Source of the DNA: Ilumatobacteraceae bacterium
GTDB taxonomy: Bacteria > Actinomycetota > Acidimicrobiia > Acidimicrobiales > Iamiaceae
Assembly: GCA_025463265.1 (NCBI GenBank)
Contig: JAOBWH010000158.1
Location: forward strand, 1-35,471
Direction of reading: 5' to 3'
DNA length: 35,471 nt
The position numbers and the translations under genes are program-made. Of the stretch, positions 9,507 through 35,471 are shown piece after piece; the stretch's first letter is position 1, and every line of letters starts with the position of its first letter. Under the pieces are notes generated by a model that saw only the letters and a program-made list of their open reading frames with translations, searched no databases and was not told the origin of the DNA.

Positions 9507-12056
9507 TCAGCGGGTGCGGTCGGCGGCGAAGCTGGCGCCGGAGGCCAGCAGCGCATCGATCTCGTCGGCGGTGATCGAGGGGCTGAACAGGTGACCCTGG
9601 GCCAGTTCGCACCCGAGGCGCTCGAGCACCTCGGCCTGGGCTGCGGTCTCCACGCCCTCGGCGACGGTGTCGAAGCCCAGGTTGTCGGCCAGCACGAGGG
9701 CCGCCGACACGATGGCCAGGTCGTGCGACGACGGGTCGTTGAGCCCGGCGACGAAGGAGGCGTCGACCTTCAAGATGTCGGCGGCGGAGAAGCGACGCAG
9801 GTAGTCCAGCGTGGCGAAGCCGGTCCCGAAGTCGTCGATGGCGAGCCGGACGCCCAGCTCCTTGAACCGGCGCAGCTGGTCCACGATGGTGTCGGGATCG
9901 GTGACGAGGTCGGCCTCGGTGACCTCCAGGCAGAGCTGCCGCGGCGGCACCTTGTGGCGGGCCAAGCAGTCCGCCACGAAGTCGACCAGGTCGGCGTCGG
10001 TGAGCTGCCGGGCCGACAGGTTGGCCGCCACCTCGAGCGTCGGCCAGCGAGCCGCGTGGCGCGACGCCTGCTCGATGACCCAGCGGCCCAACGGCAGGAT
10101 CAGACCGGTGTCGGTGGCGACGGGCACGAACGCGCTGGGCTTCACCAGTCCGATGCCGGGACGCTCCCAGCGCAGCAGCGCCTCGACGCCGACCACCGCC
10201 CGGTCCTCGAGACGGACGACCGGCTGGAAGTGCAGGACCATCTCGTCGGCGCGGAGGGCGTCGCGCAGCGCGTTCTCGACCTCCAGGCGGGCCATGGCCC
10301 GGTCGCGCAGGCCGACGTGGAACAGGGCGGTGCGGTTCCGGCCCCGCTCCTTGGCGTCGTACATGGCCAGGTCGGCGTCCTGGAGGACCTCGGCCGGATC
10401 GGCCGGGCCGACGGCGTGGACGACGCCGATGCTGGCCGAGACCACGACGCGCCCGCCGGGCAGGTCGATGGGCGCGGCCAGGGCGTCGGTGAGACGGCCC
10501 GCCAGCGCAGCCACGGCGTCGGCGCTGTCGAGGTCCGGGCAGAGCGCCACGAACTCATCGCCGCCCACCCGAGCCACCAGGTCGGCGGGGCGCAAGGCGC
10601 GGCGGAACCGGTAGCTCACCTCTTGGAGCAGCTGGTCCCCGGCGTCGTGACCCAGGCTGTCGTTGATGAGCTTGAACCGGTCGAGGTCGATGAAGAGCAG
10701 CCCCGCCTGCACGCCGTCGACGCCGAACGTCTCGCGCAGCCGGCCGAGGAGGAAGCGGCGGTTGGGCAGGCCGGTGAACTCGTCGTGGAGGGCGCCGTGG
10801 GCGAGGCGGGCCTGGAGGTGGTGGCGGTCGACGGCGATGGTGGCCAGATCCACCGCCAGCGCGATGACGTCGTTCTCGTCCGGGGTGAGGTCCCCGTCGT
10901 GGTGGCGCAGCAGCACCAGGCGGCCGACGAGCCCCTCGGATCCGGTCAGGTCCACGGCGAACGCCCGGACGGAGCGACCGCCCGAGGCCGCCTTCACGAC
11001 CGAGTCCCAGCCGTCGCTGGTGCGGACGGCGTCGGTCGGCGACGTGAGCGGCTGGAGCGGCGGTCGGCTGATGCCGGTGCGCTCGAGGACCGAGAGCAGC
11101 TCGTCGTCGAGCGTGGGCGACTCCGCCAGGTAGCGCGGGCCGTCGTAGTAGCCGATGACCACGTCGCCCTCGCCGACGCGCCGGGCGGCCAGGTCGGCCA
11201 CGGCGCGGAGCGACTCCCCCACCGGTGCCCCTCGGGCGATGCGCTCCAGCAGCAGCGTCTGGTCGTTGAGCAGGTCGACCGCGTTGCCCTCGCCCTGGAC
11301 CTCCCGGCCGGCGAGGAGCAGCAGGTGGTCTCCGAGCTCCTCGCTCGAGGAGCGTTCCAGGCGCAGACGCCGCCACGAGCCGTCGCTGGCCTGCATGCGC
11401 AGGACCCGCTGCCGCCCGGGACCGGTGCCGAGGACCCGGTCCAGGTGGACCCCGTCCTCCGGTCCGGCGAGGAGGTCGTCGGGGTGGACCACCGAGGTGA
11501 CGAGCACGCCGGTCAGCTCGACCGCGGAGCGGCCGAGGATCCGCTCGACCGACGGGCTGGCGTAGGCGATGGTGCCGCTCCGGTCGGTGACCAGGATCAG
11601 GTCGCTGGCGCCGCGCAGCAGGGTCGACGCCCACGCGTCGCGCTGGCGGTACACCTCAGACTCGCTGGACCGGTCGGTGATGTCCCGGCCGACCGCGATG
11701 ATCTGGCCGACGCCGGGCGTGGCGAGCGCGTTCGTGAGCATGAACTCGGCCTCGCGCAGGCGCCCGTCGGGCGTGACGATCGTGACCTCGATGGGCCCGT
11801 GGACGCCGGGCGATGACGCGGCGAAGGCCAGCGCCTTCACGTGCAGGTCGTGGTTCGCGGCCTTGGCGAACAGCTCGAAGACCGGGTGTCCGAGCAGGTC
11901 CCGGGGGCTCCAGCCGAACGTGTCGCCGCCGGTGGGCCCGAACCCGACGATGGTCCCCTCGGCGTCCAGGAGGATCACCGAGTCCGGGAGGGCGGCGAGC
12001 AGCTCCGCCGCCACCACCCCTTCCGGCAGCCCCATCGGTTCCGGCGCCGCGGTCAT
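9507..12056 (-). CDS. PAS-PAS-GAF-GGDEF-EAL c-di-GMP synthase/phosphodiesterase
   Basis: An 849-residue cytoplasmic sensor enzyme with no predicted membrane segment. The domains in order are PAS (about 18-128), PAS (about 140-252), GAF-like (about 268-412), GGDEF (about 420-580) and EAL (about 588-838). The cyclase motif GGDEF is intact at 498-502. An inhibitory-site RxxD (R489-D492) lies exactly five residues before it, so product inhibition is expected. The phosphodiesterase residues also look intact: EALLRW (625-630), NLSARQL, EVTEADL, DDFGTG (741-746), LKVD and QGHLF. Both activities are therefore possible and the net direction cannot be read from sequence. ATG at 12056 overlaps the hemL stop (ATGA), placing this signalling enzyme in the hemB-hemL operon. 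Confidence 0.94.
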   Translation of the reverse strand: MTAAPEPMGLPEGVVAAELLAALPDSVILLDAEGTIVGFGPTGGDTFGWSPRDLLGHPVFELFAKAANHDLHVKALAFAASSPGVHGPIEVTIVTPDGRLREAEFMLTNALATPGVGQIIAVGRDITDRSSESEVYRQRDAWASTLLRGASDLILVTDRSGTIAYASPSVERILGRSAVELTGVLVTSVVHPDDLLAGPEDGVHLDRVLGTGPGRQRVLRMQASDGSWRRLRLERSSSEELGDHLLLLAGREVQGEGNAVDLLNDQTLLLERIARGAPVGESLRAVADLAARRVGEGDVVIGYYDGPRYLAESPTLDDELLSVLERTGISRPPLQPLTSPTDAVRTSDGWDSVVKAASGGRSVRAFAVDLTGSEGLVGRLVLLRHHDGDLTPDENDVIALAVDLATIAVDRHHLQARLAHGALHDEFTGLPNRRFLLGRLRETFGVDGVQAGLLFIDLDRFKLINDSLGHDAGDQLLQEVSYRFRRALRPADLVARVGGDEFVALCPDLDSADAVAALAGRLTDALAAPIDLPGGRVVVSASIGVVHAVGPADPAEVLQDADLAMYDAKERGRNRTALFHVGLRDRAMARLEVENALRDALRADEMVLHFQPVVRLEDRAVVGVEALLRWERPGIGLVKPSAFVPVATDTGLILPLGRWVIEQASRHAARWPTLEVAANLSARQLTDADLVDFVADCLARHKVPPRQLCLEVTEADLVTDPDTIVDQLRRFKELGVRLAIDDFGTGFATLDYLRRFSAADILKVDASFVAGLNDPSSHDLAIVSAALVLADNLGFDTVAEGVETAAQAEVLERLGCELAQGHLFSPSITADEIDALLASGASFAADRTR

Positions 12057-33028: not shown

Positions 33029-33544
33029 TCAACGCCCGGCGAGCGCCTCGGATTCCGGATCGTCGAGGTCATCGGCCGCACCGGCGGCATCGGACCCGAC
33101 GGGCTCGTCCGGTTCGCCCCGTCCGCTCGAGCCGTTGACCGGTGCTGCCGCGCCGCCGGCCGGTCGAGGTGCCAGCAGCTCGGGCTCGAACCCGGCGGCG
33201 CGGCGCTCGGCGCAGAACGACTCGTAGATCTGGACGAGGGTCTTCTTCTGCTCCTCGTTGAGCCAGATGTCTCGCCGGATCTCCGTGACCAGGTCCGTGT
33301 CGCCTTCGCGGGGCTCGAGGATGCCGGCGCGGATGTAGAGCGTCTCCGAGCTGATCTCGAGGGCCCGGGCGATCTGCTGGAGGATCTCGGCCGACGGCTT
33401 GCGCAGTCCGCGCTCGATCTGGCTCAGGTACGGGTTCGAGATCCCCGCCATGTCCGAGAGCTTGCGCAGCGAGAGGTGCCCGACCTTGCGCTGCTCGCGG
33501 ATGAACTCACCCAGGTCATGCCAACGGGCTTCGAGTTCGGCCAT
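33029..33544 (-). CDS. XRE-family helix-turn-helix regulator
   Basis: A 171-residue cytoplasmic regulator. The Cro/C1-type HTH covers about residues 11-72 (LRKLSDMAGISNPYLSQIER, PSAEILQQIARAL). A short helical region ending IYESFCAER follows, and then a low-complexity Gly/Pro/acidic tail from about 125. It resembles the XRE regulator found a few genes before mshA in mycobacteria (Rv0474-like), as far as I recall. It is the first gene of XRE-mshA-YbjN. ATG at 33544 has a TAGCCT -10 at leaderless spacing. Target genes are unknown. Confidence 0.9.
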   Translation of the reverse strand: MAELEARWHDLGEFIREQRKVGHLSLRKLSDMAGISNPYLSQIERGLRKPSAEILQQIARALEISSETLYIRAGILEPREGDTDLVTEIRRDIWLNEEQKKTLVQIYESFCAERRAAGFEPELLAPRPAGGAAAPVNGSSGRGEPDEPVGSDAAGAADDLDDPESEALAGR

Positions 33545-33828: not shown

Positions 33829-34362
33829 CTAGCGGAGCGCGTCTTCGGGGCGGGCTTCGCCGGTGCGGTAGCGGCGGGTGATCTCGGCCTGGAGGGTGTC
33901 GATGCGGTCGAAGAGCTGGCGCCGGAAGCCCGACACCTCGTGCTCGAGCTCGCTCAGGTCAGTGGCGACCTGGGCCAGGGCCTCGTCGTCGGCCTCTCCG
34001 GGGGACTCGATCGGCACCCGGTCGGAGATCTCGGTGAGCCGGTCGGCGAGCCGACCGGTCAGGTCCCCGGGCTCCAGGTTGGGGGTGAGCCGGCCGGGGC
34101 CGGGGGCGTGGATGCGGTCGGCGAGGATCTCGGGCAGGCGCTCGACCAGGTCGGCGACGTCGTAGCGGTCGCCGCCGTGGCCGCGCCGGTCGATCTCGCC
34201 GGTGACGATGTCGTGGCGGCCCTGGACCATGCGCCGCAGGTAGGAGAGCTGGGTCTCGACGGCCTGGCACTCGGCTCGCAGCGCGCGCACCTCGGCCACG
34301 GGGCGATCCTCGAGCCCGACGAAGTAGTCGTCGGCGAGGATCCGATCCAGCTCGGTGTCCAT
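33829..34362 (-). CDS. RsiG-like c-di-GMP-binding anti-sigma factor candidate
   Basis: A 177-residue soluble, mostly helical protein. Residues 36-51 read ETQLSYLRRMVQGRHD, an exact match to the RsiG signature E(X)3S(X)2R(X)3Q(X)3D (E36, S40, R43, Q47, D51). Residues 140-155 read EHEVSGFRRQLFDRID, a second copy with Gln replaced by Phe (E140, S144, R147, F151, D155). In Streptomyces, RsiG carries two such motifs on an antiparallel coiled coil, binds a c-di-GMP dimer and sequesters the sigma factor WhiG. Both helices and their order are preserved here, separated by an acidic linker. ATG at 34362 follows GGAGG. No sigma gene is in the window. The homology call rests on the motif and architecture. 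Confidence 0.82.
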   Translation of the reverse strand: MDTELDRILADDYFVGLEDRPVAEVRALRAECQAVETQLSYLRRMVQGRHDIVTGEIDRRGHGGDRYDVADLVERLPEILADRIHAPGPGRLTPNLEPGDLTGRLADRLTEISDRVPIESPGEADDEALAQVATDLSELEHEVSGFRRQLFDRIDTLQAEITRRYRTGEARPEDALR

Positions 34363-34430: not shown

Positions 34431-35471
34431 TCAGACGCCCCGGGCGAGGTAGAGCCCGATGAGGCCGGCCCACGCCGGGGCGACGACGAGCATGCTGTCG
34501 AGGCGCCGCAGGGCTGGGGCGTGCTCGTCCGCCTTCGGGAGCAGGGCCGAGGCCAGGATCTGGCCGGCGGGGCAGGCGATCATCGCCAGCACCGAGAAGC
34601 TCCAGATGTCGCTGCCGTGGTCGTTGAACGGCGGAGCGCTGAGCAGGGCGGCGATGGCCGACGCCGCTGCGATCATGATCATCCCGGCCAGCGGACCCTC
34701 GATGCCGTTGCTGGCTCCGGAGCCGACGATGAAGTCGCTGGCGTCGTAGACCATCACGAAGACCAGCAGGATGATGAGGGCGCCGATCTCGTACTCGGCC
34801 AGGAGCACGAGCGACGCGGCCGCTCCCCCGCAGATCCCGGCGGCGGCCACCGTGTGCCCGGCGCGCGGGATCGGCAGCCGCCCGCGCTCGGGGGTTCCCA
34901 GCGCAGCAGCGAGGGCGGCGCCGACGAGCAGGATGGCACCGACGCCGAGGGCCTGGGTGCCGAGGGTGGCGGCGACCGCCAGGCCCGAGGCGCCGAAGGC
35001 GGCGACGGCGCGGTCCGCGCTGGTGCGGTCGCCCCGGTGGGCGTCGATGATCTGGGCGGCGGCCGCGCCGGCGACCACGCCGTAGAGGACGGCCAGACCC
35101 CAGGGGCGCAGCTCCTGCGGGACGAGGACGGCGACGACGGCGAGGACCCACAGCACGCCCATGCGGACCTTCGGGCCCTGGGTGTCGTAGGGGATGCCGT
35201 AGCGGCGGCGGAACGGCGAGAGGTGGTCCTCCTGCTTGGGCAGCAGGTCTTCGACGGGCGGCTTCGCGGCCCGGATCCGGCGCAGGCGGCCGGTGTGGGT
35301 CTCCTCCGGATCGCCTTCGGGCCGTGCCGGCCCGCGGCGGCGGGCCTTCGGCTGCTGGGGCGACCGCTCCTCGGCGCGACCGGTCGGATCCGCCGTGGTG
35401 GGCGGGACGGTCGCGGCGGGGGCGGCCGCGGCGGCCTTGAACGTGACGCCGGTGGGCGGTGCCGTGGGCCG
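34431..35471 (-). CDS. CdsA-like (phosphatidate cytidylyltransferase family) membrane protein, N-terminus off the edge
   Basis: The frame is open without a stop from 34431 to the right edge, giving 346 visible residues. The first 103 (before the first in-frame ATG at 35162) form a Pro/Ala/Arg-rich cytoplasmic extension ending LSPFRRRYGIPYDTQGP. The rest has about eight hydrophobic segments. A CdsA-type pattern is present but degenerate: YDASDFIVGSGASNGIEGP, then LLPKADEHAPALRRLDSML where active enzymes have KR-KD-PGHGG-DR-D-S. The GHGG element is missing, so catalysis of CDP-diacylglycerol formation is doubtful. It lies 68 nt upstream of the RsiG-like gene and may be co-transcribed with it. 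Confidence 0.6.
   Translation of the reverse strand, partial: RPTAPPTGVTFKAAAAAPAATVPPTTADPTGRAEERSPQQPKARRRGPARPEGDPEETHTGRLRRIRAAKPPVEDLLPKQEDHLSPFRRRYGIPYDTQGPKVRMGVLWVLAVVAVLVPQELRPWGLAVLYGVVAGAAAAQIIDAHRGDRTSADRAVAAFGASGLAVAATLGTQALGVGAILLVGAALAAALGTPERGRLPIPRAGHTVAAAGICGGAAASLVLLAEYEIGALIILLVFVMVYDASDFIVGSGASNGIEGPLAGMIMIAAASAIAALLSAPPFNDHGSDIWSFSVLAMIACPAGQILASALLPKADEHAPALRRLDSMLVVAPAWAGLIGLYLARGV

Follow-up and report, generated by a model that had tools for sequence, protein, structure and literature searches.

The open reading frame at 33829-34362 of the window (the whole stretch of 35,471 nucleotides that was analysed) raises a question about a c-di-GMP switch. Its product resembles RsiG and carries one canonical signature motif and a second one in which phenylalanine stands in place of glutamine. 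Is this second motif a decayed site, or is it the normal form in this group of bacteria? The initial annotation had read the two motifs as E36-S40-R43-Q47-D51 and E140-S144-R147-F151-D155, and both are present exactly in the translation of the minus strand, a strand that it did not name; the frame (33829-34362, minus strand) encodes 177 residues followed by a stop codon. In the solved RsiG structures, Glu and Ser contact the ribose, Arg and Asp read the guanine, and Gln stacks on it (PMC8325347). Both motifs have been called 'strikingly well conserved', with one stated exception, His in place of Gln in motif 1 (PMC8325347). The protein described here fails the literal Gln/His rule of this published consensus at position 4 of motif 2, that is at Phe151 (codon TTC, 33910-33912, minus strand), the base-stacking position that is elsewhere Gln or His. 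We approached the question by computation, covering homology and predicted fold, the partner gene and its co-occurrence with rsiG, conservation, and the promoter footprint.

Homology and predicted fold of the rsiG product

The Pfam RsiG profile (PF22802) matched the 177-residue protein in two stretches with 86.7 bits and E=8e-25, against a cut-off of 27, and the sequence of S. venezuelae RsiG (6PFJ_T) matched residues 22-176 with E=3.9e-14. Rubrobacter RsiG aligned over the motif-1 helix with an E of about 1e-4, and a search of NCBIfam returned no RsiG match. Among 298 genomes from this order, 174 encoded a homologue. The closest named relatives were found in Aquihabitans and other Acidimicrobiales, Aquihabitans being the nearest named genus, so that the earlier impression of an acidimicrobial genome was correct.

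An AlphaFold2 model of the protein, built with 85 homologues, had a mean pLDDT of 90.5 and predicted an antiparallel coiled coil of two long helices, each carrying one motif, as the initial annotation had anticipated. The first helix (residues 22-61; 34180-34299, minus strand; pLDDT about 95) aligned to 6PFV and 6PFJ and carries motif 1 (34210-34257, minus strand); the second (residues 126-167; 33862-33987, minus strand; pLDDT 94-98) carries motif 2 (33898-33945, minus strand). In the linker that joins them (residues 62-125; 33988-34179, minus strand) the pLDDT went down to 64-66 at residues 81-100. The linker loop of S. venezuelae RsiG covers the bound c-di-GMP (PMC8325347). When the model was compared with known structures using Foldseek, E values below 0.001 were obtained solely for RsiG chains, the four in 6PFJ and 6PFV. 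VIA-align placed RsiG at Z scores of 14.0 and 13.6 and the next row at 7.6; its best row was 6PFV_B (Z 14.0 over 156 residues, 4.1 A). Smc, chemoreceptors and flagellins, which stood below RsiG in these searches with Z below 8, were set aside as common helical arrangements.

Profile and structural searches therefore agree with the original description of the protein as RsiG-like. With matches far beyond chance, the predicted product of 33829-34362 is a true twin-motif RsiG homologue, and we class it as RsiG by homology and architecture, variant at position 4 of motif 2. It is like S. venezuelae RsiG (6PFJ, 6PFV), a twin-motif monomer, in its length, in the placing of its motifs on two long helices and in its WhiG partner, with 34-37% identity and a predicted fold at Z 14; it differs in having Phe in place of Gln at motif-2 position 4. 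The motif-1 helix is also shared with RsiG of Rubrobacter radiotolerans (7LQ2-7LQ4), which, unlike the protein described here with its two motifs per chain, has one motif per chain and is a homodimer. This single-motif homodimer class was ruled out for the 177-residue protein, since both helices and both motifs are present.

Position 4 of the second motif

For comparison, 90 homologues were drawn from the order's 298 genomes, starting with those that matched this RsiG best and then spreading further down the list. In motif 1, Ser, Arg and Asp were present in 90/90 and Gln in 83/90. Glu, Ser and Arg of motif 2 were likewise invariant and Asp was found in 88/90, and position 4 was His in 53, Phe in 34, Leu in 2 and Gln in 1; because sampling began with the closest matches, this ratio of His to Phe is no census. 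Phe is the residue at this position in all six genomes of the genus, and within the order His and Phe have replaced one another at least 12 times.

Addition of 54 further sequences, the majority from other orders, gave a set of 144 twin-motif RsiGs. Position 4 of motif 1 was Gln in 122 of these, His in 20 and another residue in two, and position 4 of motif 2 was His in 63, Phe in 42, Gln in 19, Leu in 15, Ile in 4 and Met in 1. Hydrophobic residues (Phe, Leu, Ile or Met) at this place were thus found in 62/144 second motifs, 0/144 first motifs and 0/35 single-motif homologues, in which it was Gln or His in 35/35; the p-values for this contrast ignore relatedness. The remainder of motif 2 hardly varied, with Glu, Ser and Arg in 144/144 and Asp in 142/144. 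On a tree built without both position-4 columns, at least 17 changes were needed between the Gln/His and the hydrophobic state, 6 of them forced by starred branches. In one assembly (G080) there are two RsiG genes (L053, L073), a Phe-type and a His-type, unless this reflects 5% contamination. Elsewhere in the phylum, G358 and G403 gave five and six matches to the RsiG profile, perhaps several RsiG paralogues, and an acidimicrobial-type RsiG occurred in two metagenome assemblies labelled Acidobacteria (L146, L163), labels that are probably wrong.

Since 62 of the 144 twin-motif homologues carry Phe, Leu, Ile or Met, a literal Gln or His at motif-2 position 4 does not define the family. Judged from these alignments, Phe is normal in this lineage at position 151, which changes freely amid fixed neighbours, and the motif-2 half-site has diverged asymmetrically across the phylum, which the published logo does not show. 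The initial annotation had considered the protein a possible evolutionary intermediate, a view that does not sit with published records of twin-motif RsiG in 3/4 Acidimicrobiales species (PMC8325347), nor with the frequency of Phe in the order and the genus. An intermediate between single- and twin-motif forms was rejected, as both halves are complete and the homologues of the whole order are twin-motif.

It may be argued that Phe151 weakens the second half-site, lowering affinity or making c-di-GMP binding asymmetric, one site tight and one loose, and so raising the threshold of the switch. The guanine stacking of Gln in the known RsiG structures (PMC8325347) and the restriction of hydrophobic residues to motif 2, never motif 1, of the twin-motif proteins would favour this. 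However, Glu, Ser, Arg and Asp of motif 2, the residues that contact the ribose and the edges of the guanine, are nearly invariant; this argues that the site is under selection, and the term 'degenerate' previously applied to it does not fit. The repeated His/Phe exchange, moreover, is what near-equivalent residues would be expected to show. We consider the weakened half-site unlikely and prefer one that still works, at which c-di-GMP binding may be re-tuned. Strict planar stacking is seemingly not needed, as Leu, Ile and Met occupy the same place in other groups; since these residues cannot stack like Gln, His and Phe, the precise role of position 4 is uncertain.

The WhiG partner and the rsiG neighbourhood

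A genome search for a WhiG/FliA-type sigma factor, proposed as a check in the initial annotation, recovered two FliA/WhiG-family sigma factors above the curated cut-off (L033, L034). The first, L033, is WhiG: it matched the NCBIfam WhiG equivalog NF004935 with 350.7 bits (cut-off 343) and S. venezuelae WhiG (6PFJ chain A) with 308 bits, and its K34-G38-R39 correspond to K57-G61-R62, all three c-di-GMP contacts being kept. The gene is flanked by those for a tyrosine recombinase and an M23 peptidase, with an apparent rpsB after it; whiG of Streptomyces is similarly placed beside rpsB. The second, L034 (G000:C43:2736-3398), has R, F and Q at the K, G and R contacts. Its neighbour is FlgN-like with a score just below the FlgN cut-off, and no flagellin match was found in this genome.

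When WhiG was scored as present at an E of 1e-50 or better, 159 of the 298 genomes had both RsiG and WhiG, 15 RsiG only, 11 WhiG only and 113 neither (Fisher 2e-51). Draft assemblies may account for some of the 15 of 174 RsiG genomes that lack a clear WhiG. Within the family, both proteins were found in 6/6 genomes of the genus and neither in 6/6 sister-genus genomes; these RsiG-less sister genera have only sigma factors that are remote from WhiG, the best E being about 1e-42. L034 is a family member above the cut-off and might on that ground be proposed as the partner of RsiG, in place of or alongside WhiG. It lacks all three WhiG contacts for c-di-GMP, however, and the sister genera without RsiG retain only sigma factors distant from WhiG, and we regard L034 as a very unlikely partner.

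We then take WhiG (L033) as the preferred partner. The initial annotation had suggested that the altered motif might go with an altered sigma factor, a suggestion that loses ground with the retention of the K, G and R contacts in WhiG of 20/20 Phe-type genomes; in His-type genomes K and R were kept in 20/20 and G in 15/20. A search for columns of WhiG that co-vary with Phe or His in RsiG gave no convincing column in 857 tests (lowest p 9e-4, uncorrected). A literature search found no binding data for an acidimicrobial RsiG, and one could imagine drift of this RsiG towards another ligand or a function independent of c-di-GMP. Nine of its ten signature residues are kept, as is the partner, and RsiG is lost together with WhiG, all of which speak against such drift; we hold it to be less probable still than a partnership with L034.

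The surroundings of rsiG are also conserved. Across 80 related loci, a glycosyltransferase was a neighbour in 75, YbjN in 65, ProC in 62 and an XRE regulator in 54, which speaks for vertical inheritance of rsiG. The XRE-type regulator lies downstream of rsiG (33029-33544, minus strand; HTH_3, 51 bits) as part of this conserved neighbourhood. By eye it is not BldD-like. Upstream, 34431-35162 encodes a membrane protein, CdsA-like by eye, which stands beside rsiG in 29/80 related loci and had no match in Pfam or NCBIfam. A GGDEF domain is encoded in the same window at 10332-10793 (minus strand), and GGDEF matches number 32 genome-wide.

Predicted WhiG promoters and the proposed switch

The canonical flagellar promoter TAAA-N14-17-GCCGATAA had zero exact matches in the genome. 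With two mismatches allowed, TAAA-N15-GCCGATAA gave 20 genome sites versus 6 for the reversed pattern, and from this search the TCAA form was recognised: TCAA-N15-GCCGATA had 6 exact genome matches and the reversed pattern none. The -35 form TCAA was thus derived from this genome itself and differs from canonical TAAA. Six congeners with both RsiG and WhiG contained 18 TCAA-N15-GCCGATAG sites versus 2 in six relatives with neither, or 12 versus 2 after removal of the discovery genome.

In 5/6 congeners, Aquihabitans-like species, the site stands 6 nt upstream of the GTG of tadA/cpaF, which encodes the Tad-pilus ATPase (G000:C76:20272-20298, L108 and L333; L357, L359, L360 and L364 in the others); it was not found in congener G133. 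This position suggests a leaderless WhiG transcript of tadA. Over the five species the -35 and -10 elements are 100% identical, the spacer 47% and the 60 nt upstream 34%. The Tad locus is ordered cpaB, cpaE/tadZ-like, tadA, VWA-T2SSF (tadB-like) and T2SSF (tadC-like). A GGDEF-EAL gene lies downstream of another such site (G000:C131:45987-46013, L111 and L335), and a 75% identical ortholog is similarly placed in G250 (L358), making two species; a feedback loop on c-di-GMP is possible. Genes for a glucosaminidase and a lipoprotein-like protein, as well as an anti-sigma/sigma-B-like operon, also have such a site in front of them, in each case in a single genome. These TCAA promoters could also be read by L034, the other FliA-type sigma factor of the genome. 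The conserved sites suggest that the RsiG-WhiG switch probably controls Tad pili here.

Taking these observations together, we consider it likely that this Aquihabitans-like acidimicrobial has a c-di-GMP-armed RsiG-WhiG switch with a working Phe151 half-site and Tad and GGDEF-EAL targets; c-di-GMP binding, its stoichiometry, sigma capture, Phe stacking and the regulon are what we infer. At high c-di-GMP, a single RsiG chain would fold as an antiparallel coiled coil whose two motifs hold a c-di-GMP dimer. So armed, RsiG would bind WhiG at the K-x3-G-R patch conserved in sigma region 2 and hold it away from RNA polymerase, and a drop in c-di-GMP would release it. Both the binding of the c-di-GMP dimer and the c-di-GMP-dependent inhibition of WhiG are putative. 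Phe151, which replaces the stacking Gln of S. venezuelae RsiG, most likely packs on guanine, since the motif-2 place is His or hydrophobic in many lineages, and the site would still work. Free WhiG would most likely transcribe the Tad (Flp) operon tadA-tadB-tadC and the GGDEF-EAL enzyme from TCAA-N15-GCCGATAG promoters. In contrast to S. venezuelae, where the -35 element of WhiG is TAAA and RsiG governs sporulation genes, the element here is likely TCAA and the predicted targets are the Tad pilus operon and the GGDEF-EAL gene.

The RsiG described here is ordinary for its order, where its altered motif-2 residue, though real, counts as normal. Two modest points are new: the phylum-wide asymmetric divergence of the second half-site, and a footprinted, predicted Tad-pilus target. 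RsiG offers a worked example of an internal duplication that turned a symmetric homodimer into an asymmetric monomer. As a corollary, after the fusion many lineages saw one of the half-sites relax at just one contact; the homodimers, which cannot alter one copy alone, stayed as they were. Whether the full account holds, namely that after fusion the motif-2 stacking residue became free to diverge and changed many times to His, Phe, Leu, Ile or Met, with Gln or His retained in motif 1 and in the homodimers, giving an asymmetric and possibly re-tuned site in a switch that in this genus controls Tad pili and a GGDEF-EAL enzyme, seems to us evenly balanced. As far as we know, the promoter footprint is the first concrete target prediction for this switch in Acidimicrobiia. 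In Rubrobacter, WhiG sites lie upstream of type IV pilus and DGC/PDE genes (PMC8325347), so that the sigma switch predicted here, although directed at Tad rather than type IV pili, would be like that of R. radiotolerans in governing pili and c-di-GMP enzymes. Streptomyces has put the RsiG-WhiG switch to sporulation; with the parallel between the predicted targets and those of Rubrobacter, the view that pilus control would be the older role would gain support.
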